14,066 bases of DNA from the NCBI GenBank assembly GCA_902386085.1, contig CABMIA010000062.1, positions 1 to 14,066 of the forward strand, in the 5' to 3' direction. This stretch comes from an uncultured archaeon. GTDB taxonomy: Archaea > Halobacteriota > Methanosarcinia > Methanosarcinales > Methanoperedenaceae. A program made the translations under genes and the position numbers. Positions 2,006 to 11,024 of this stretch are shown in pieces. Position 1 is the first letter of the stretch. Each line of letters opens with the position of its first letter. Below the pieces are notes generated by a model. The model made no database searches. It was not told the origin of the DNA and saw only the letters and a program-made list of their open reading frames with translations.

Positions 2006-4177
2006 TCAGTGATTGAAGTACGCTATAACCACTTCTATGGCCACTACCCTCGTAGTCCTTCCAACGAAATAGTCCTCGATTGCCCTCACCGCTTCCCCCT
2101 TGTCGATTATACCGTTATTGTCCGTATCGTATGCCTCGACCTCAGGCGGCTGTCTCCCGGTCACTGTAACATTACCGGTCATATTCATATTATCGTGGAT
2201 AGTACACACGTAATTATACGTGCCGGGTTTCGTGAAAGTCAGGGTGTAGTTATCCCCGGCGTTAAGTATACCTGAGTTATAGAAACCTGTGCCGTTGTGG
2301 ATACTCCCGCCTGCTGGTGTCGCTGCCACCGGGTTTACTGTGAGATTTGGTAGCAGGAATTCCGGTGGGTTATTACCTGCTTCAGGGAATGTGACTGTGT
2401 GTATCTCGATAAAGTTCAACTGTTTCCATACTATTGAATCGTTAACGTGTATGGTCAGATTCTGAGGTGTAAACCGTGCGAACATCGCATTATGCTTAAC
2501 AATATCACCGCTTGCTATAGGTGTAGCCCCGGTACCTTCCATTGCAGGTCCCTGATGCACGTTAATGAACCAGCCTCTGCTTGCTACCGCAAACCATGGG
2601 GGGCCTGTGATTACAGTCGTGCTGGTGCCTGTGCCATTAAAGTCGGCAGTTAAGTTACCCAGTGTATAAAGGATCGGACCGCCTGCTTCGCTTGTGCCTA
2701 TGCGGATATCTGCCGGATATGTGTTGTTCGGAACAAGACCGGTCACCATTATCTGTACCTGCATTTCACCCACGCCGATAAAGCTCAGTGCAGCATTTCC
2801 GGTCACATTGGAGTTGTTCTCCGGCATTAAGCGCAGACTTGCATTTACAGGAAGGGGGATGTCGGCAGACACATGAAATACTGTTATGCCGTTCTCTCCC
2901 TGAGATGTTTCAGGGCTTTCATGATCTTCCAGTTCCTGCCCTGTATCCATATCCTCCTGCAATTCCCTCATACCCAGTGCTGTATACTGGCTCTGGTTTG
3001 ACGGGTAGGGGCTGCCTGCGGGCTGCACTATGACGACGCCAGTCATGCCAGGATGGATAAGACAACGATAGTCATAAAAGCCCTGCTTGGTGAATGTCAG
3101 GGAGTAACTCATACCCGGCGTTAATAAGCCGGAACTTGAAACACCTGTGCCGTTGTAAGTTGAGCCGCCGGCAGGCAGGAATACTGATGCATTGCCGGGA
3201 TCGGGGATCTGTGCACCGCTCAGGAAGCTGACAGTATGTACCAGATGACCTCCGAGCGTCCAGACGATAGTATCACCTTCGTTAATGATGATGCTTCCGG
3301 GATAGAATCCCATGCCCTGCAGCGCCATGTCGGGCGTTTCTCCACCCGCGAGCACCTGCCAAGTCATCCCTGATCGCACAATCACGACTGCGCTTCCTGT
3401 TACGGTGCCGTTAGTTGCATTTACCATTGATGTTCCCACAGCACCTGCCATGAATGATGTGGATGCATTTCCATCGGCGCCTGTTATTGCATTCACCGGG
3501 GAAACATTTCCGGGAGGGGTGCTCGTAAATGTTATATTGATTCCCGGCAGCGGAGCGCCATTCTGGTCCCTTGCCGTAGCAATGAACAACTGGGTTGCAT
3601 TGATACCCGGAGTAGCTGTTGAGGGTGAATCGGTGATCGTGGCCAGTATTGGTGGCGGAGCCGGAGTTGGTGTTGGTGATGTTGTAGGTGTCGGCGTCGG
3701 GGTCGCGACTGCTACTGTAATTTCTGCAAAGTTCGTTCCATCCGGGGCCATATTTGTTCCGGAACTTGTATATACCCTGAGAGTATAGGTTCCGGGAACT
3801 GCCGGTGCTGTCAGGACTGATGATGCCGTCCCGCTCGATGCCGCGCCTGCAGGGGCCGGAATACGTGGTGTCGGATTAAATAAACTATTTGAAATATTCG
3901 AGAGACCGATGTTAGAAAAATCAGTCGGCCAGTTTACCTCTGTTTCCGGTCCTGCACCTGTAGCAAGTCCTCCACTATAGGTTATGCCCACAGTAAAAAT
4001 CTGATTGGGATTCACTGTAAGTGAAGTAATATTTGTGCTGACAATAATGGATGGCGATAATGTATGACAACCATTGCATGCCATGGTTTGCCCTGGAAAG
4101 GCTCCAGCTATGGATATCCCTCCTGTGAGCAGTGCTAATATCAGGACTACCGATGCTAATATATTTTTAATTTTCAT
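2006..4177 (-). CDS. Large secreted haem/copper protein: CXXCH, two cupredoxin domains, CHRD-like domain, EF hand
   Basis: 723 residues. An N-terminal signal peptide (about 1-26, cleavage near AGA-F) is followed by one c-type haem site CNGCH (34-38) opening a beta-rich domain (about 40-157) that resembles Reeler/choice-of-anchor-V-type modules. A Thr-Pro linker (159-176) and an Ig-like domain (about 178-268) come next. Cupredoxin domain 1 (about 270-385) has the type-1 copper set His314, Cys372, His375, Met378 (RCLIHPGM). A CHRD-like domain (about 430-560, with FINVHQGP) precedes cupredoxin domain 2 (about 565-675) with His593, Cys658, His661 and Met664 or Met666 (VCTIHDNMNM). The C-terminus has an EF-hand-like loop DTDNNGIIDKGE (684-695). 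Many NxS/T sequons suggest surface glycosylation. There is no C-terminal membrane helix, so it is released or held by other surface proteins. Likely role: electron transfer or copper handling outside the cell. The ATG at 4177 has a strong GGAGG site 6-7 bases upstream. Confidence 0.93.
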   Translation of the reverse strand: MKIKNILASVVLILALLTGGISIAGAFPGQTMACNGCHTLSPSIIVSTNITSLTVNPNQIFTVGITYSGGLATGAGPETEVNWPTDFSNIGLSNISNSLFNPTPRIPAPAGAASSGTASSVLTAPAVPGTYTLRVYTSSGTNMAPDGTNFAEITVAVATPTPTPTTSPTPTPAPPPILATITDSPSTATPGINATQLFIATARDQNGAPLPGINITFTSTPPGNVSPVNAITGADGNASTSFMAGAVGTSMVNATNGTVTGSAVVIVRSGMTWQVLAGGETPDMALQGMGFYPGSIIINEGDTIVWTLGGHLVHTVSFLSGAQIPDPGNASVFLPAGGSTYNGTGVSSSGLLTPGMSYSLTFTKQGFYDYRCLIHPGMTGVVIVQPAGSPYPSNQSQYTALGMRELQEDMDTGQELEDHESPETSQGENGITVFHVSADIPLPVNASLRLMPENNSNVTGNAALSFIGVGEMQVQIMVTGLVPNNTYPADIRIGTSEAGGPILYTLGNLTADFNGTGTSTTVITGPPWFAVASRGWFINVHQGPAMEGTGATPIASGDIVKHNAMFARFTPQNLTIHVNDSIVWKQLNFIEIHTVTFPEAGNNPPEFLLPNLTVNPVAATPAGGSIHNGTGFYNSGILNAGDNYTLTFTKPGTYNYVCTIHDNMNMTGNVTVTGRQPPEVEAYDTDNNGIIDKGEAVRAIEDYFVGRTTRVVAIEVVIAYFNH
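3650..3703 (-). repeat. Thr-Pro linker coding repeat
   Basis: Low-complexity sequence encoding TPTPTPTTSPTPTPAPPP (residues 159-176) between the haem-containing N-terminal domain and the Ig-like domain of the secreted copper/haem protein. It acts as a flexible, probably O-glycosylated spacer, and is not a mobile or CRISPR repeat. Confidence 0.8.
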
Positions 4178-4225
4178 TATATCCTCCTTTTATTTTATTG
4201 AGATAGTTAATCGCATACAGAAAAA

Positions 4226-4239
4226 ATGATTATATCAGA
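4226..4239 (-). promoter_or_regulatory. Candidate TATA element for the copper/haem protein gene
   Basis: On the minus strand the sequence reads CTGATATAATCA, about 50-60 bases before the ATG at 4177. This leaves room for a start site and a short leader containing the GGAGG site. It is the best AT-rich box in this spacer for leftward transcription, but short AT-rich matches are weak evidence. Confidence 0.35.
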
Positions 4240-4277
4240 TGTTTTGTGATGATACTGTAAAGTCATTTAGTAGAGCA

Positions 4278-4289
4278 ATTGATATCAAT
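4278..4289. promoter_or_regulatory. 12-bp perfect palindrome, possible operator
   Basis: ATTGATATCAAT is its own reverse complement. It lies about 100 bases upstream of the leftward gene and 215 bases before the rightward gene. Its AT-rich dyad form is compatible with a dimeric repressor site, but a palindrome of this length in AT-rich DNA can be chance. Confidence 0.3.
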
Positions 4290-4388
4290 CTCCCTTTCTG
4301 CAAATTACTAACTCCTCACTTTCCTGAATTAATCTGTGGTGTTCAATTCATTTAAGCCTTTCTGTTGCAGAAGGTTCAATTGCAAATT

Positions 4389-4480
4389 ATTGCCAAGGTG
4401 CATCATCAATTTGGCATAAACGAATGAATTCATTGTCAAATAATCTTTTAGCATTGACATTAGATATTCAGAATTGGGGT
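4389..4480 (+). promoter_or_regulatory. Phased series of TTGnCAA/T elements upstream of the first regulator gene
   Basis: Five TTG-led heptamers occur at near-constant spacing: TTGCCAA (4390), TTGGCAT (4411), TTGTCAA (4433), TTGACAT (4454) and a weaker TTGGGGT (4474). Steps are 21, 22, 21 and 20 bases, about two helical turns, so all would face the same side of DNA. The segment TTGTCAAATAATCTTTTAG is nearly repeated upstream of the two-helix membrane protein gene (6144 onward). This fits an array bound cooperatively by a dimeric regulator such as the ribbon-helix-helix protein encoded directly downstream; that link is inference. Confidence 0.55.
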
Positions 4481-4504
4481 GGTTGAAATACAGGAGGTCA
4501 GAAC

Positions 4505-5944
4505 ATGAATGTTTCAAGGCACATCTCCATCGACGATGAACATATTGAAAAATTAAAGCCATATCTGGAGAAGCACAATGGTAATCTGGGCGCTGCAATA
4601 AAGGATATGATAAACATAGCTGAAAAATATGCCTGCCATACGAATTCTTCTGCAATAAATTTCTCTCTCTTTAACTGGATGCTTACAGAGGTTGACGGCA
4701 TCCTCGTTCCAGACGCCGAGCTGAATGAACTTATCGATCCAGCTTTGAATTCGATGAGTAAACTTGAGGAACTCCTGAAACGCAGGTTCAAGGAATGGGA
4801 ATGGGATATTGAGCTTGCATTAAAATATGATCTTGACAGCCTTCCCTCTTTCGTATCGGTAGAATTGAAAGGAGATCCTCAAAAAATAAAATTGGCAGCA
4901 TGTATTCTGTCACAGTATCTGGTTCGTAATTCACTTGACCGGGCGCCGCTTGAGATCAAGTACGCTGTCAATTTCAGCGATTGCCGCAAGGTCGGGCTTT
5001 CAATGTCAAATAAAAAGGATGCAGAGAAAAGCCTCATCACCTTTTTCGGGAGAAATGACACTGTGATAAAAGCAATAAAAAGCCGTCCGGCTTTCTGGAA
5101 ATCGGTGATCAACAGGCACATTTCAAGTAATTACAATATGGTCACTGTTCACAGGAACTACCTTGAGGATCTATTTGCCGGTAATATACCTCTTGAGGAT
5201 ATAACAATTGAAAACCTGGCACAAAAACCAATCCGGGAGATACCTCCCGATGAAATGCTTCACCTGATAAAAGAGGTTTATGAGACTTACAGGATCGTGG
5301 ACAGGGTTGACCTCGAAAAAGATACGATGATAGTATCCCACAGCTACAGGAACAAGGAAGCGATAGAGAAATTAAAAAAAATCCTGGTTTCGCTTCTGGA
5401 AGGGAATGGTCATTTATACGATGCCAAGTCAACTGCAAATATGATCGTACTTACGCACAGGCCTGATATAGGTACAAAGATCAATGAAATAGTGGACAAA
5501 CTGAAAGCAAGTAACAACAGGGTGGACCAGGAACTGATGGTTTTCATGGCATTTGTTTCGGGACTCAAGGACATTCCGGATATACCGATATCCCTGACAG
5601 CCCTTGGCAGGAGAATCGGAAAGTCCCTTATGCAGGAGTACGAAAAAGAAAACGGCATCAAGACCTGGGACCTGGGAAATTTCCAGAAAGCCCTGGAGAT
5701 AATCGATTCCAGGCTTCATCGGGAAAGTGAATGGAAACTTGAGGGAAAAAACCTGCTGTATACGGTCAGGAAATGCAATATCGTTGCAGAAGAAAAAACC
5801 TTTGATACGTATGTCTGCCATACTGCCAGGGAGACGTTCAAGGGGGCACTGAACTATGCCTTCGGCAATAAGGCGGAATTGGACATCAAACATCTGTTGA
5901 CTCACGGGGACAATATCTGTGAGGTGGTCATACGAATACCATAA
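4505..5944 (+). CDS. RHH-type regulator with C-terminal V4R-like sensor domain (paralogue 1)
   Basis: 479 residues; I do not recognise a named gene. The N-terminus (RHISIDDEHIEKLKPY, then a helix to about 41) has the strand-helix-helix pattern of a ribbon-helix-helix DNA-binding domain. The middle (about 85-350) is mixed alpha/beta and includes KSRPAFWKSVINRH (192-205) and SHSYRNKEAIEKL (278-290). The C-terminus (about 362-479) has the pattern of V4R-type small-molecule-binding domains: GRRIGKSL at the start, then Cys424, Cys438, a glycine-rich turn, and HGDNICEV with Cys472. V4R domains occur in the archaeal redox regulator MsvR. These cysteines and His439 are conserved in the downstream paralogue, so redox, metal or small-ligand sensing is plausible. 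No signal peptide or membrane helix is seen, so it is cytoplasmic. The start is firm: AGGAGGT lies 6 bases before ATG. It heads a rightward series leading to the cytochrome/HybAB genes. Gene certain, function inferred. Confidence 0.9.
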   Translation: MNVSRHISIDDEHIEKLKPYLEKHNGNLGAAIKDMINIAEKYACHTNSSAINFSLFNWMLTEVDGILVPDAELNELIDPALNSMSKLEELLKRRFKEWEWDIELALKYDLDSLPSFVSVELKGDPQKIKLAACILSQYLVRNSLDRAPLEIKYAVNFSDCRKVGLSMSNKKDAEKSLITFFGRNDTVIKAIKSRPAFWKSVINRHISSNYNMVTVHRNYLEDLFAGNIPLEDITIENLAQKPIREIPPDEMLHLIKEVYETYRIVDRVDLEKDTMIVSHSYRNKEAIEKLKKILVSLLEGNGHLYDAKSTANMIVLTHRPDIGTKINEIVDKLKASNNRVDQELMVFMAFVSGLKDIPDIPISLTALGRRIGKSLMQEYEKENGIKTWDLGNFQKALEIIDSRLHRESEWKLEGKNLLYTVRKCNIVAEEKTFDTYVCHTARETFKGALNYAFGNKAELDIKHLLTHGDNICEVVIRIP

Positions 5945-6010: not shown

Positions 6011-6030
6011 AGGAATTTCCAGGAATTTCC
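6011..6030. repeat. Tandem duplication of AGGAATTTCC
   Basis: The 10-mer AGGAATTTCC occurs twice head to tail, 65 bases after the stop of the first regulator gene. It is a short local duplication in the promoter-proximal spacer; whether it binds a protein is unknown. Confidence 0.5.
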
Positions 6031-6048
6031 TAGCCTCCATTACCCGGC

Positions 6049-6191
6049 TTTTATGCCAACGGAGGCAATTTTATGCCATTCATTGGCATAATATGATATT
6101 TTTTGTTATTTTATGGCAATACCTGGCCTCTCTTGCTAAATTTTTGTCAAATATTCTTTTAGGTTTGGCATTACATCGCTCTAATTGACGA
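6049..6191 (+). promoter_or_regulatory. Second cluster of TTGGCAT/TTGTCAA elements, upstream of the two-helix membrane protein gene
   Basis: The spacer 5945-6214 (270 bp, no gene) contains a dense set of related elements. TTTTATGCCA appears twice exactly 20 bases apart (6049, 6069). A perfect 7-bp inverted repeat TATGCCA-ttcat-TGGCATA covers 6072-6090. Plus-strand elements TTGGCAT (6083), TTGTTAT (6103), TTGTCAA (6144), TTGGCAT (6165) and TTGACGA (6185) fall on an approximately 20-21-base grid with one weak position near 6123. The 6144-6165 pair matches the 4433-4454 pair of the first array in order and spacing. It probably controls the operon starting at 6215 and shares its regulator with the first array. 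Confidence 0.55.
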
Positions 6192-6214
6192 TAATTAGTA
6201 GGAGAGGATAAAAT

Positions 6215-6508
6215 ATGAAGTACTGGAATAAATACGTTGCAACTGCCATTGTGGGCGGGGGTATAATCGGGGGAACTTATCTTCTCCCGGCCGATAGCTA
6301 CCTTGCCTTCGTGACGGGATGGGTTGTCCTCATTCCCGTAGCAGTAGCTGTATTCCTCGGATACGGGCTGCGGGAATACAGGAAGAACAGGAAGAACAGG
6401 ATAACCATATCCATGAAGCCGAGTGAAGCCATGAAAGCGCTTGCCAGAAGGGAAGCCGAACTTCAGAGGGAGAAAGAACTCCTGTACGAAGAAATTCGCA
6501 GGGGGTAA
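6215..6508 (+). CDS. Small two-helix membrane protein with charged C-terminal helix
   Basis: 97 residues, no recognised family. There are two membrane helices (about 7-24, glycine-rich, and 30-51). A strongly basic stretch REYRKNRKNR (53-62) follows, then a charged amphipathic helix (about 68-96, EAMKALARREAELQREKEL) that could form a coiled coil. The positive-inside rule places the C-terminus in the cytoplasm. AGGAGAGG lies just upstream of ATG. It sits between two regulator paralogues, with 24 bases to the next ATG, so it is co-transcribed with paralogue 2. It may anchor or signal to the soluble regulators or belong to the downstream respiratory complex; both are guesses. The tandem AGGAAGAAC at 6379-6396 encodes the basic repeat. 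Confidence 0.82.
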   Translation: MKYWNKYVATAIVGGGIIGGTYLLPADSYLAFVTGWVVLIPVAVAVFLGYGLREYRKNRKNRITISMKPSEAMKALARREAELQREKELLYEEIRRG

Positions 6509-6532: not shown

Positions 6533-7975
6533 ATGATAATTACAAGACACATCTCACTCGACAACGACTGCATTGAAAAGATGGAACCTTATGTCGAGAA
6601 ACATAAAGGTAATTTCAGTGCAGCGATTCGGGAAATAATCGACAGGGCAGGGAACTACAACTCCCTCAAGAACCTGTCGGCCATAGACAATTCCATGTTC
6701 AAATGGATGCTGAACGAGATCGACGGGATGCTCGTCCCTGATACCGTGCTGGACGATCTTATCGATCCCATGCTGATACACTCCATAGGGAAGCTTGAAG
6801 AACACCTGAAGCGGCGGTTTTCCGAACTTGAGTGGGATATTGACCTTACTTTGAAGTGCGACAATGACTCATCCCCCTCCGATATTTTCATAGAAATAAC
6901 CGGCTCTCCCCAAAAAACGAAATTTGTCGCCCGCATACTTTCGCAGTATCTTTTGAAAAATTCACCAGAACAAATCCCGCTTGAGATCAGGTCAGTCTAT
7001 AATTTAGAAGGATGCATAAAAATTGAGCTTTCCAGGTCTAACGAAAAAGACTCAAGGGATAGCCTCATAAAATATTTTGGAGGGATGGATGAAGTGACAA
7101 AAGCTGTAAAGAGCAGGCCGGCATTCTGGAAAGCCCTGATCAACGGTCACATGCTGAGCAATTATAACATGGTCACCCTTCACAGGAATTACTTTGAGGA
7201 TCTTCTTGCGGGAAAGGTTCCGATGGGAGAAATAACCATTGAAACCATGGCGAAAAAACCCATCCAGGAGATACCGCTTACTGAAATGCTCACCCTGATA
7301 AAGGAAGTTTACGAAACGTCCAGGGTCGCAGACAGGGTTGAGATAGACAGGGAAACCGTAATATTATTCCACAATTATAGAAATAAAGATGTAATAGAGA
7401 AATTAAAAAAGAGCCTTGTTACGCTGCTGGAGGCCAACGGGCATTTATACGATGCCAAGTCCACGGCGAACATGATCGTCCTGACCCACAGGCCTGATGT
7501 GGGCATCAAGATCAATGAGATCGTGGGTAATCTGAAAATAAGCAACAGCAGGGTGGATCAGGACCTTATAATGTTCATGGCCTTTCTTAAAGGGCTCAAG
7601 AACATCCCTGATATCCCCATATCCCTGACCGCCCTGGGAAGGAGAATAGGGAAGTCCCTGCTGCAGGAGTATGAAAAAGAGAACGGCATCAAGAGCTGGG
7701 AACTTGAAAATTTTCAGAAGGCTCTGGAAATAATCGATTCCAAGCTTCATAGGGAAAGCGAATGGAAACTTGAAGGGAAAAACCTCCTGTACACGGTCAG
7801 GAAATGCAATATCGTGGCAGAGGGGAATACATTCGATACATACGTCTGCCATACCATACGGGAGACATTCAAGGGGGCCGTGAGCTATGCATTTGGAAAC
7901 CGGGCAGAAATGGACATTAAAAAATTACTCTCGCACGGGGATAATTTTTGCGAGGTGGTTTTACGGATACCGTGA
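6533..7975 (+). CDS. RHH-type regulator with C-terminal V4R-like sensor domain (paralogue 2)
   Basis: 480 residues, collinear with the 479-residue protein upstream with a single one-residue insertion (near residue 82), so the pair arose by duplication. By eye, identity is about 50% over the first 50 residues and about 85% over the last 100, so the sensor end is far better conserved than the DNA-binding end. The N-terminus RHISLDNDCIEKMEPY keeps the ribbon-helix-helix pattern. V4R-like features are GRRIGKSL, Cys425, Cys439-His440 and HGDNFCEV with Cys473; Cys161 also matches Cys160 of the paralogue. The start at ATG 6533 matches the paralogue's start; the ribosome site is only a weak AAGGGG, suggesting coupling to the gene 24 bases upstream. 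The cytochrome gene follows after 78 bases. Function inferred as above; the differing DNA-binding end could mean different target preference or partner choice. Confidence 0.9.
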   Translation: MIITRHISLDNDCIEKMEPYVEKHKGNFSAAIREIIDRAGNYNSLKNLSAIDNSMFKWMLNEIDGMLVPDTVLDDLIDPMLIHSIGKLEEHLKRRFSELEWDIDLTLKCDNDSSPSDIFIEITGSPQKTKFVARILSQYLLKNSPEQIPLEIRSVYNLEGCIKIELSRSNEKDSRDSLIKYFGGMDEVTKAVKSRPAFWKALINGHMLSNYNMVTLHRNYFEDLLAGKVPMGEITIETMAKKPIQEIPLTEMLTLIKEVYETSRVADRVEIDRETVILFHNYRNKDVIEKLKKSLVTLLEANGHLYDAKSTANMIVLTHRPDVGIKINEIVGNLKISNSRVDQDLIMFMAFLKGLKNIPDIPISLTALGRRIGKSLLQEYEKENGIKSWELENFQKALEIIDSKLHRESEWKLEGKNLLYTVRKCNIVAEGNTFDTYVCHTIRETFKGAVSYAFGNRAEMDIKKLLSHGDNFCEVVLRIP

Positions 7976-8053: not shown

Positions 8054-8857
8054 ATGAAAACATTACTGGAAAATATAACATTTGTCAAAGGAATAGAATA
8101 CCTGATCGTCGTTGCATTCGGGTTCGGGTTCATAGCGCTGTGGCTGTTGATACATGCCATGGAAAAGGACGGGATGAAAAGGATCGTATCCCTGGTCATT
8201 CCGCTCTCCCTGATATTTGGCGGCGCGGCTATCGTGGTCAACACACATGCCACCCCTGATTCAGCGCCCAATATTACGGCAATTACGGCAACAAGCGAAA
8301 AAAATTTTGATACTGGTGCAACGGTTCCGGTGAGTAACCTGGATAAATGGTTCAGGGTCAATAATTCGGAATATCTCTCAATAACCTACGGGCCTGATAC
8401 AAAGTTCCACCAGGTGATGAGTGAAAAGGTGAGCTGTCAAACATGCCATCACAACAGCGGGAATGAGATCCGGGCATGCAGGGATTGCCACAATGCGCCT
8501 TCCAACCCGCATAATTCAACCATCCCTGGTCTTAAGGCAGCATACCACCAGAGATGCATGTCCTGCCACAGGGAGGAATTCTCAGGCCCTTATTGCTGTT
8601 CCAGATGCCATACTGGAGAGGCAAAGGTATCAGCTATCGTTCAAGCTCCCACGCGTCCCCACACGCTTACCTGGGAAACATGCAGCAAATGCCATAAAAA
8701 TGGCATTCCGGGAGGGCAGGTTTCAAAGATCGTATATCACGATAGCTGCCTGAAATGCCATACGCAGGGCATTGGAGGGGCGGCAAAGATACCCGCGGAT
8801 CATGCAGGAAGAGCCGGAAATACCTGCTCAGGTTGCCACAAGCCGGCCGGAGGATAA
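8054..8857 (+). CDS. Membrane-anchored seven-haem cytochrome c
   Basis: 267 residues. Two N-terminal membrane helices (about 14-35 and 44-63) anchor the protein; residues 64 onward would be outside. Seven CXXCH haem c sites follow: CQTCH (128), CRDCH (142), CMSCH (168), CSRCH (182), CSKCH (210), CLKCH (232) and CSGCH (258). Additional histidines (for example His119, His153, His165, His203, His229, His250) can supply distal ligands for bis-His haems. The first helix with KGIEYLIVVAFGFGFIALW recalls small membrane subunits of multihaem electron-transfer complexes. It lies 2 bases upstream of the Fe-S subunit ATG, whose ribosome site overlaps its last codons, so the subunits are translationally linked. 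Likely role: haem wire between the ferredoxin/quinone module and outer electron carriers. Seven haems are directly visible; partners are inferred. Confidence 0.95.
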   Translation: MKTLLENITFVKGIEYLIVVAFGFGFIALWLLIHAMEKDGMKRIVSLVIPLSLIFGGAAIVVNTHATPDSAPNITAITATSEKNFDTGATVPVSNLDKWFRVNNSEYLSITYGPDTKFHQVMSEKVSCQTCHHNSGNEIRACRDCHNAPSNPHNSTIPGLKAAYHQRCMSCHREEFSGPYCCSRCHTGEAKVSAIVQAPTRPHTLTWETCSKCHKNGIPGGQVSKIVYHDSCLKCHTQGIGGAAKIPADHAGRAGNTCSGCHKPAGG

Positions 8858-8859
8858 CT

Positions 8860-9759
8860 ATGATGAACAGAAGGAACTTTCTAAAAATTGGGGTTTCGGC
8901 CCTTGCTTTTGGCATCGCAGGAAGCGGAAAGGCTCTCGCCACTGAGGACTTTGCAGGCAATCCCGACCGCCTTGGTATGTTGAGCGACACCACACGGTGT
9001 ATAGGATGCCGCCGCTGTGAAGCTGCATGCAACAAAGCAAACAACCTTCCTCCGCCTAAAAAATCGTTTGAGGACACATCGGTTTTCGAGGAGAAGAGGA
9101 GACCCTATGTTGCTGATGTGCAGTCATATACTGCGGTCAACCGCTATACTGTAGATGGAAAAACGGTTTACCGTAAAGTGCAGTGCATGCACTGCGATGA
9201 ACCGGCATGCGTTTCTGCCTGTCCGGTAGCCGCAATGAAAAAGAGCAAAGAAGGCCCGGTCGTCTGGGATGAGAAACTGTGCATAGGATGCAGATACTGC
9301 ATCGTTGCATGTCCTTTCTATGTTCCTGCATTTGATTATTCAAGTGCGTTCGATCCCAGGATACAAAAGTGCTTTATGTGCTACAAACGAATATCCGAGG
9401 GTCTTGTTCCTGCATGCGCCGAGGCATGCCCTGTCGAGGCTATCACATTCGGGAAAAGAAGCGACCTTATCAAGACCGCCAAGCTTCGGGTCTGGGGAGA
9501 GCCGGATAAGTATATCGACCATGTCTTTGGCGAAGAGGAAGCCGGTGGAACGGGATGGCTGTATATATCAGGGGTCCCTTTCTCCGAGCTTGACTTTCCG
9601 ATGGATGTCGGGACGACATCGTATCCCAAGCTTACCAAGGACTTCCTGTCGATGGTCAATATAACTCTTGTCTCATGGCCGGCACTTCTCGGAGGTTTTT
9701 ATCTGATGCATCATAAGGCACATAATGAAAAATCGGATAAGGAAGGTGACAAACAATGA
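8860..9759 (+). CDS. Tat-exported 4x[4Fe-4S] ferredoxin subunit, HybA/NrfC/DsrO type
   Basis: 299 residues. The N-terminus MMNRRNFLKIG followed by a hydrophobic stretch to ALA (about 27) is a twin-arginine signal, so the folded Fe-S protein is exported. Sixteen cysteines in four clusters are visible: 47/50/53/57, 109/112/117/121, 141/144/147/151 and 171/174/186/190, the standard pattern of the electron-transfer subunits of HybA, NrfC and DsrO complexes. The sequence DTTRCIGCRRCEAACNK is closest in style to HybA, and like HybA it has a C-terminal membrane helix (about 263-283). The start is ATG 8860 or the next codon 8863; GGAGGA at 8849-8854 suits both. A longer reading upstream would destroy the Tat signal position and overlap the cytochrome gene. 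Its stop overlaps the HybB-like start (ATGA), implying translational coupling and a stable complex. It would relay electrons between the quinone subunit and the cytochrome. Confidence 0.95.
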   Translation: MMNRRNFLKIGVSALAFGIAGSGKALATEDFAGNPDRLGMLSDTTRCIGCRRCEAACNKANNLPPPKKSFEDTSVFEEKRRPYVADVQSYTAVNRYTVDGKTVYRKVQCMHCDEPACVSACPVAAMKKSKEGPVVWDEKLCIGCRYCIVACPFYVPAFDYSSAFDPRIQKCFMCYKRISEGLVPACAEACPVEAITFGKRSDLIKTAKLRVWGEPDKYIDHVFGEEEAGGTGWLYISGVPFSELDFPMDVGTTSYPKLTKDFLSMVNITLVSWPALLGGFYLMHHKAHNEKSDKEGDKQ

Positions 9760-11024
9760 ACGAATTCGCAGGCGAATATACGGAAAAACACATTTATCAG
9801 GAGAAAGAACAAACGGGCTCCGAGATCATTACTTACTGGATAAGGGATAAGCTCTTCATGGGGCTTACCTTTAAAGAATACTTCAAGAGCCTGATAACGC
9901 CTTTGAATGTGGTCGCAGGACTCATTGTCCTGGCAGGGGCTTATCTTATCGCAATGCGTTTCCTCTTTAGACTTTCAGAGGTGACCGAAAGTTCAAATGA
10001 GCAGCCCTGGGGGCTTTTCCTGAGCTGGGGGCTGTTCATCGGCGTACCTTTCTCAGCGTCAGGATTCGTTATCGGGACAGCGGTGTATATCTTCGGGCTT
10101 AAGAAATACCAGCCGATAGTTAAAAATGCCATCCTGCTGGGTTTCCTCGGGTATCTCTTCGCTGTCATCTTCCTGATGATCGACCTCGGACGCCCATGGA
10201 GAATCTATTACCCCATGATCATCTCATTCGGCACAGCCTCGATCATGTTTCTTGTGGCATGGCACGTGTCCCTGTATCTCTCGGTCCAGTTGCTCGAGTT
10301 CTCGCCATCGGCGCTGGCGTGGCTTGGTGCCCGAAAACTCAGGAAGGTGGCTGTGGGCATGACACTGATGCTCACCGTATTCGGAGTGATGCTCTCGACA
10401 CTCCACCAGGCTGCCCTGAGCGGGATGTTCCTTCTCGCACCCGGGAAGCTGCATCCGCTCTGGTACACCTCGTACCTCCCCTGGCTTGCATTCATATCTG
10501 CCATCGGAGCAGCGATTGCCCTTATGATAGTGGTGACAAAACTTTCCCAGGTCTTCCTGAGGGAAAGGGCTGACGAGCATTATCTCTCAAACCTTGATAA
10601 TATCACCCTTGGCCTGGGGAAAGCTGCTTCTTTCGTGTTGTTCACCTACGTCGGCTTGAGGCTAATCAGCGTGACCCATGAGAGCGCATGGAAATATATA
10701 AACACGCCTTTCGGCCACTGGTTCCTGGTAGAGATCACGATCCTGGGTATTCTGCCTTTCCTCTTCTATTACGGTGTGCAGAAGAAGAATGTGGGTATTG
10801 TCCAGGTCTCGGCTGCGCTGACTATGGTCGGCATCATCATGAACCGCCTCAATATCTCTCTGATAGCATTCAACTGGCAGCTCCCGAACAGGGAACTATT
10901 CTACTGGAAGGAGTTCGTGGTCGTGATAGCAGTTGTTACTATCGAGATAATCGTCTACCGCTGGGTTGTGAACAGGATGCCCGTGCTCAGGCAGCACCCG
11001 GACTATATAGGGGACGAACATTAG
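9756..11024 (+). CDS. HybB/NrfD-type quinone-reactive integral membrane subunit
   Basis: 422 residues with about ten membrane helices (near 52-70, 88-112, 125-143, 153-178, 200-222, 240-260, 288-306, 320-340, 348-368 and 386-406), matching the HybB branch of the NrfD/PsrC family. Diagnostic segments are WGLFIGVPFSASGFVIG (92-108), DLGRPWR (143-149), LHQAALSGMFLLAPGKLHP (216-234) and MNRLN (362-366). The family oxidises or reduces menaquinone at the outer membrane face and passes electrons to an NrfC/HybA-type ferredoxin. It overlaps that gene by 4 bases and ends the operon before a strong terminator. No NiFe hydrogenase subunits are adjacent, so in this context quinone-cytochrome electron transfer is more likely than hydrogen metabolism. 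Whether it moves protons cannot be told from sequence. Confidence 0.95.
   Translation: MNEFAGEYTEKHIYQEKEQTGSEIITYWIRDKLFMGLTFKEYFKSLITPLNVVAGLIVLAGAYLIAMRFLFRLSEVTESSNEQPWGLFLSWGLFIGVPFSASGFVIGTAVYIFGLKKYQPIVKNAILLGFLGYLFAVIFLMIDLGRPWRIYYPMIISFGTASIMFLVAWHVSLYLSVQLLEFSPSALAWLGARKLRKVAVGMTLMLTVFGVMLSTLHQAALSGMFLLAPGKLHPLWYTSYLPWLAFISAIGAAIALMIVVTKLSQVFLRERADEHYLSNLDNITLGLGKAASFVLFTYVGLRLISVTHESAWKYINTPFGHWFLVEITILGILPFLFYYGVQKKNVGIVQVSAALTMVGIIMNRLNISLIAFNWQLPNRELFYWKEFVVVIAVVTIEIIVYRWVVNRMPVLRQHPDYIGDEH

Follow-up and report, generated by a model that had tools for sequence, protein, structure and literature searches.

Helically phased WTGNCAW arrays upstream of putative RHH-V4R regulator genes in a “Candidatus Methanoperedens” relative

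Which protein would read a series of short, evenly spaced elements in front of an archaeal regulator gene, and to what end? The question is raised by a contig of 14,066 nt (the window, i.e. the whole stretch analysed) from a relative of “Candidatus Methanoperedens”, whose own genome is incomplete (1.69 Mb, 64% complete). An original prediction had described five TTGNCAW-like elements at two-turn spacing upstream of a gene for a 479-residue protein, here termed F1b, and had proposed cooperative binding of a dimeric regulator. A second array precedes the small gene F2, which is followed by F1c, a paralogue of F1b. On balance we favour the view that these F1 proteins, which appear to combine a ribbon-helix-helix (RHH) N-terminus with a V4R-like C-terminus, bind the arrays side by side on one face of the DNA and thereby autoregulate the F1b and F2/F1c promoters.

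The observation on the first array is real and was underestimated; its interpretation is right in kind, but wrong on the fifth element and on the two-turn unit. Four of the five elements (at 4390, 4411, 4433 and 4454) lie exactly where they had been placed, with gaps of 21, 22 and 21 bp, and they do cover the region where the F1b promoter is presumed to lie. The fifth, TTGGGGT at 4474, is not counted here since it agrees in only 4 of 6 defined motif letters and sits in the presumed leader, 11 nt before the AGGAGGT. The array as such is well established: when the divergent spacer (4178-4504) was shuffled 20,000 times with its dinucleotides preserved, no shuffle gave four elements in a row at 20-22 bp, 1 gave at least three and 50 gave at least two, so that the regularity exceeds what AT-rich sequence yields by chance, as had been supposed. 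Searching the genome of origin for TTGNCAW-N12-16-TTGNCAW returned eight matches. The window contig accounts for four, namely three within the array plus the one at 6144; the remaining four are at chance level, because the reversed pattern used as control gave six.

The unit of the spacing is seen in the promoters of F2 genes. After near-duplicates had been stripped (37 to 30 upstream regions), 26 of the 30 could be anchored on the proximal element; at least two further elements are present in 19 of these 26 promoters, and none or one in seven. All 89 further WTGNCAW elements located 8-125 bp from the proximal one deviate by no more than 1.5 bp from a multiple of 10.25 bp, the period having been picked post hoc and the tolerance spanning about 30% of positions. 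This count omits elements nearer than 8 bp or farther than 125 bp, including one 6-bp overlap each in loci L072 and L026:4355, which stems from TTGACATTGNCAT. The in-phase elements occupy 10 separate positions in 15 occupancy patterns over the 19 promoters; as they are all in phase while the patterns vary among promoters, shared ancestry alone does not explain the lattice. When the reach is extended to 160 bp (20 promoters), the phase is kept by 94 of 95 full elements. Before distance cuts the pair distances have a power of 0.87 at 10.2 bp, and those out of phase are 6, 15, 26, 45, 55, 65, 75 and 85 bp, found once or twice each. Degenerate copies with five of six letters are in phase in 59 of 89 cases (bins covering 29% of positions), and in distal slots a T and a G recur 11 and 12 bp past the element start (70% and 74% of 76 elements). 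Furthermore, two promoters, in genomes G008 and G026, carry five elements each, spaced exactly 10 bp. Taken together, the lattice data and these five-element runs indicate that the unit is WTGNCAWNNN and that the 21/22/21 arrangement in the window is a spaced version of it. The two-turn step thus does not hold up as the unit: in relatives the slots of a one-turn lattice (about 10.2 bp) are filled or skipped, and two-turn spacing is a special case.

The promoters orthologous to that of F1b give a similar picture. Of these 15 promoters, one is that of the window and 14 come from relatives; 14 of the 15 carry at least two elements (13 of the 14 relatives), the exception being L112 with a single element. 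The distances to the proximal element (25 values) reach a power of 0.86 near 10 bp, with 0.83 at 10.3 bp, values that none of 20,000 random sets attained; this set retains near-duplicates (a 62/72 bp arrangement recurs in L109, L110, L116 and L119) and drops elements beyond 230 bp. The spacing is mostly, not always, near multiples of 10-10.3 bp (an element at 131 bp in L116 is out of phase), and degenerate copies are only weakly in phase (27 of 56, p 0.013; 13 of 15 promoters anchored). The motif recurs in related spacers; four elements at two-turn steps occur in the window alone. L105 and L108 repeat the outer pair of the window, whose elements are separated by 64 bp, at distances of 64 and 63 bp.

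The concentration of such chains at F1 and F2 genes is also shown. A background sample of 60 stretches (1,187,001 bp) from one relative (G001), from which F1 loci had been excluded, contains 1,419 single elements and no three-element chain, either on or off the lattice. In contrast, 20 regulator loci totalling 276,494 bp contain 18 chains on the lattice and one off it; widening the lattice to 9-11, 19-22, 30-32 and 40-42 bp raised the number at regulator loci to 19 and left the background at zero. Seventeen of the 18 on-lattice chains precede an F2 gene and one (L113, 3560) precedes an F1 gene; this assignment was made by reading the loci, with F2 genes missed or mis-started by the open reading frame caller taken from the matches for F2. 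Four of the 20 loci (L109, L111, L118 and L122) have no lattice chain. The conserved core module TCAAATANTCTTTTANNATTGNCAT, allowing up to two mismatches, matches 43 times, spread over 24 of the family's 34 genomes, and never in the reversed control. Of the modules fetched, 28 of 30 are found no more than 400 bp ahead of an F1 or F2 gene, and the two exceptions have two mismatches each.

Relatives of F1 are found in all 34 genomes of the family (3 to 13 per genome) and order-wide in 110 of 185 genomes. The array appears to track F2 and F1 more than NrfD, as far as the incomplete genomes allow. Two genomes without a close F1 gene (G020 and G021; 81% and 77% complete) likewise have no F2 or NrfD match. 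Four genomes without an NrfD match (G008, G014, G015 and G017; 87, 93, 68 and 99% complete) have F2-like genes with at least three phased elements upstream, in G014 at 145-207 bp. Among 10 examined of the 11 F2-like matches listed, at least three elements near lattice spacing precede six, and none or one precedes four. In G032, which has NrfD and no F2 match, the contig starts within F1, leaving the promoter out of view.

The product of the 479-residue gene does look like the regulator it had been taken for. Profile-profile comparison of the N-terminal 50 residues (RHH profile from 29 of 30 loci) matched RHH at 72.9% with an E value of 3e-5, in register. In the monomer model helices are predicted at residues 11-23 and 28-41 with moderate confidence, and residues 1-9 have a predicted local distance difference test score below 50. 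Solved structures searched by sequence yielded no RHH chain and nothing useful; the structure-comparison list for the F1 model, which mainly covers residues 324-479, contains no RHH chain either. It includes the phenol-sensor domains of MopR, DmpR and PoxR, proteins whose output modules are not known to be RHH. The C-terminal segment matched V4R at 92.8% (81.2% at full length; V4R profile from 26 of 30 loci), the corresponding part of the model has a V4R/Bet3-like fold, and three cysteines in this domain, C424, C438 and C472, are invariant. Pfam V4R recognised two family members at E values of 4e-4 and 8e-4, under the curated cut-off, and 2 of 21 members of a separate set (best E 0.0064); NCBIfam MsvR hit 1 of 21 members (E 0.0017). 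Pfam found no helix-turn-helix family common to the members, one of which matched TetR_N (E 0.0086). Judged from sequence, the F1 N-terminus would suit RHH better than the helix-turn-helix of MsvR, and the operator geometry appears to fit several RHH dimers side by side.

The features of the window are listed below. The second operon comprises, in this order, F2, F1c and the genes for cytochrome c, the 4Fe-4S protein and NrfD; F2 has no Pfam match above cut-off. In 20 fetched loci a frequent gene order is F1a, a NapC/NirT-type cytochrome and cytochrome b561; F1b; then F2, F1c, cytochrome c, Fe-S and NrfD. A divergent gene (2006-4177, minus strand) shares the first-array spacer with F1b; its 723-aa product combines a pair of plastocyanin-like copper-binding stretches with an EF-hand-like end and a Big_1-like domain that narrowly misses the cut-off.

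Features of the two arrays and the adjacent genes in the 14,066 nt window
Feature	Positions	Strand	Remarks
Possible degenerate element TTGCAAA, 5/6 letters	4380..4386		in phase, 10 bp before first full element
Element TTGCCAA	4390..4396		
Element TTGGCAT	4411..4417		
Element TTGTCAA, slot -21	4433..4439		conserved core module TCAAATANTCTTTTANNATTGNCAT begins here
Candidate TATA region TCTTTTA	4444..4450	+	between the two proximal elements; recurs in related promoters; role inferred from position
Proximal element TTGACAT, slot 0	4454..4460		
Shine-Dalgarno-like AGGAGGT	4492..4498	+	
F1b, 479-residue putative regulator, RHH-like N-terminus and V4R-like C-terminus	4505..5944	+	gene 3' of first array
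Second array, six WTGNCAW elements at 6053, 6073, 6083, 6113, 6144 and 6165	6053..6171		gaps 20, 10, 30, 31, 21
F2, 97-residue small membrane-type protein	6215..6508	+	opens second operon; membrane nature judged from sequence
F1c, 480-residue putative regulator paralogue	6533..7975	+	68% identical to F1b
Multihaem cytochrome c	8054..8857	+	Pfam scores just under cut-offs; CXXCH motifs in translation
Fe-S (4Fe-4S) protein	8755..9759	+	Pfam
NrfD-type membrane protein	9756..11024	+	Pfam

Two further repeats were noticed around the second array. At 6071-6091 (TTATGCCATTCATTGGCATAA) an element pair 10 bp apart forms an inverted repeat that is also terminator-like, and at 6011-6030, just upstream of the array, AGGAATTTCC is present in two tandem copies with a 10-bp period.

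The proposed mechanism would work as follows. The operator track would consist of the repeating unit WTGNCAWNNN, one DNA turn long and containing a 7-bp near-palindrome, and its readers would be the RHH-V4R proteins encoded behind the tracks, F1b and, past F2, F1c. Turn after turn, a dimer would place its two-stranded ribbon in the major groove; all dimers would then lie on one face, in contact with their neighbours. Binding might begin at the best distal elements and spread across degenerate ones to slots -21 and 0. These slots flank the presumed transcription factor B recognition element (BRE) and TATA box, for which TCTTTTA (4444-4450) is likely the TATA region by position and conservation; filling them would shut the promoter. 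The outcome would be autorepression, possibly with activation at low occupancy. The V4R-like domain with its three invariant cysteines may act as a switch for binding that responds to the redox state or to a small hydrophobic ligand, and this would tune the cytochrome c/Fe-S/NrfD electron-transfer operon. We infer the binder (F1b and/or F1c, and at which array), the sign of control and the signal for V4R. Putative cooperative binding along one face, as originally suggested, is the natural reading of a phasing that is real and recurs in relatives.

Several known systems offer partial precedents. The original prediction knew of no archaeal operator with such a layout, which holds only in part: tandem or oligomeric operators of RHH proteins from archaeal viruses have been described, although the text covered contains no 10-bp WTGNCAW lattice (PMC5569661). 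According to the parts of that source covered, SvtR, AvtR and F55 repress their own genes; for SvtR and AvtR the proposal is that high-affinity sites are filled first and that oligomers then extend across degenerate ones in the direction of BRE/TATA. The stretch protected by AvtR measures about 100 nt, and with rising concentration this protein changes from activator to repressor (PMC5569661). SvtR and AvtR are precedents for the spreading from strong to degenerate sites proposed here, and AvtR for the dose-dependent sign. However, these viral proteins are small and, in the text covered, no V4R domain is mentioned for them; F55 recognises tandem repeats of ATAGATAG, SvtR and AvtR imperfect inverted repeats, whereas the window has WTGNCAW (PMC5569661). 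As a separate observation, TAGATA(G) stands right after the proximal element in the window (4461-4466) and after that of many F2 promoters; in the portion of the source covered it resembles the ATAGATAG repeat of F55, which may be a coincidence. Viral contigs gave no relative, and a virus-borne origin was therefore dropped.

MsvR of methanogens has, in the parts of the source covered, a C-terminal V4R domain with three conserved cysteines, redox-dependent binding, and two or three operator boxes that precede its own gene close to BRE/TATA (PMC3729527). The F1 proteins resemble it in the V4R-type C-terminus with three cysteines and in having candidate sites before their own gene. Redox control through the cysteines would find its precedent here. 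The TTCG-type inverted-repeat boxes of MsvR were not encountered: in 4380-4504 TTCG is missing from the plus strand and present once on the minus strand (CGAA at 4421), hence no pair, and 6040-6214 has it on neither strand. A geometrical parallel is ParB/omega of pSM19035, whose RHH dimers line up on 7-bp repeats in contiguous arrays, and full activation of the partner ATPase requires a contiguous run of four or more; these are heptads without gaps serving plasmid partition, whereas the words in the window are 7 bp long and one turn (10 bp) apart (PMC9499535, in the portion covered). A literature search combining Methanoperedens with the V4R domain, or with promoter and TATA box, found nothing, a weak absence since most subscription papers lay outside the collection searched. 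In PMC9605863, where both Methanoperedens and ribbon-helix-helix occur, the text covered concerns a CRISPR spacer target.

Some results weigh against F1 proteins as the readers. The RHH match falls to 11.4% (E 0.0026) at full length, and Pfam RHH_1 recognised 1 of 17 F1 members at an E value of 0.068, below the cut-off. A 7-bp near-palindrome could fit other dimeric folds as well. Furthermore, F1 relatives elsewhere mostly lack the motif: no lattice pair was found within 400 bp upstream of distant paralogues of the family (20 loci), nor an array near the gene start in 20 upstream stretches from other families of the order. There, L271 (287-374) has three WTGNCAW with steps of 41 and 40 bp, lying 187-268 bp ahead of an F1 relative, and this chain outside the family counts slightly against the proposal; L282 has a WTGNCAW pair at 40 bp. 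The weak RHH matches, the near-palindrome and the motif missing elsewhere would suit a true operator whose reader is an unlinked regulator, for instance a helix-turn-helix protein sensing the redox or electron-acceptor state and controlling the genes from outside. We regard this as possible, though rather unlikely. A global regulator should act at other genes too, and the concentration at F1 and F2 genes argues against it: three-element chains are missing from 1.19 Mb of one relative, 28 of 30 core modules precede F1 or F2, and F2-like genes have arrays in front of them also in genomes that gave no NrfD match.

A role of the phased elements in chromatin or in the core promoter, such as histone positioning or DNA curvature, seems improbable as an alternative to an operator. 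The period of 10.2 bp is near the helical repeat, phased A/T-rich tracts can bend DNA and the proximal element belongs to the conserved core; however, the element is defined by the letters TG.CA, chains are absent from the 1.19 Mb background, and despite A/T-rich flanks there is no fixed A-tract in distal slots. Chance or a decayed tandem duplication deserves hardly any credence: although the spacer is AT-rich and the motif short, the shuffles and the recurrence in relatives contradict chance, and no tandem repeat extends over either array, the only 10-bp tandem, at 6011-6030, being a different unit outside the array. An RNA element was rejected as the window has no Rfam match above gathering scores, and a bacterial sigma-70 promoter likewise, with 8 matches vs 5.8 expected in an archaeal host.

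Other paralogue groups have different upstream words. TKHIS-type F1 genes (L034, L036, L037, L038, L065 and others) are preceded by repeats of GGGGAAAACGG / GGGTAAAACGG at steps of about 8-11 bp in the last 105 bp, and motif-free autocorrelation in this group (15 regions) is raised at 8-10 and 17-20 bp. A third group (F1 of about 350 aa; L150, L153-L156) has TTCACA repeats at distances of about 11 and 16 bp. Promoters of F1a (L105-L111, L113-L116, L118-L120), which precede the genes for the NapC/NirT-type cytochrome and cytochrome b561, retain WTGNCAW beside a TATA-like stretch; by eye no array was seen in their 520 bp. Ribbon residue 5 (R or K) was considered as setter of the operator word; this rule is not clean and not claimed here because some K-type genes (in L108 and L113) sit behind WTGNCAW elements.

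More broadly, the RHH-V4R family may build nucleoprotein filaments on one-turn tracks, with paralogue groups using WTGNCAW, GGGGAAAACGG or TTCACA-type words, and could provide a graded redox or ligand dimmer for the cytochrome/NrfD module of the methane-oxidising Methanoperedens; at present we consider this extended view doubtful. What would be new is an RHH-type multi-site operator that is here cellular, probably coupled to a sensor and closely phased to one turn.

Methanoperedens has to fit its electron-transfer chains to acceptors that change, by means that to our knowledge are largely open. The locus offers a concrete candidate for a regulator-operator pair at an electron-transfer operon of Methanoperedens. 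If the proposal is true, the filament operators of viral RHH proteins would have a counterpart in archaeal cells. It also offers a graded operator code, in which the number and quality of one-turn slots may set the response and for which the 15 patterns in 19 promoters represent the natural variation.
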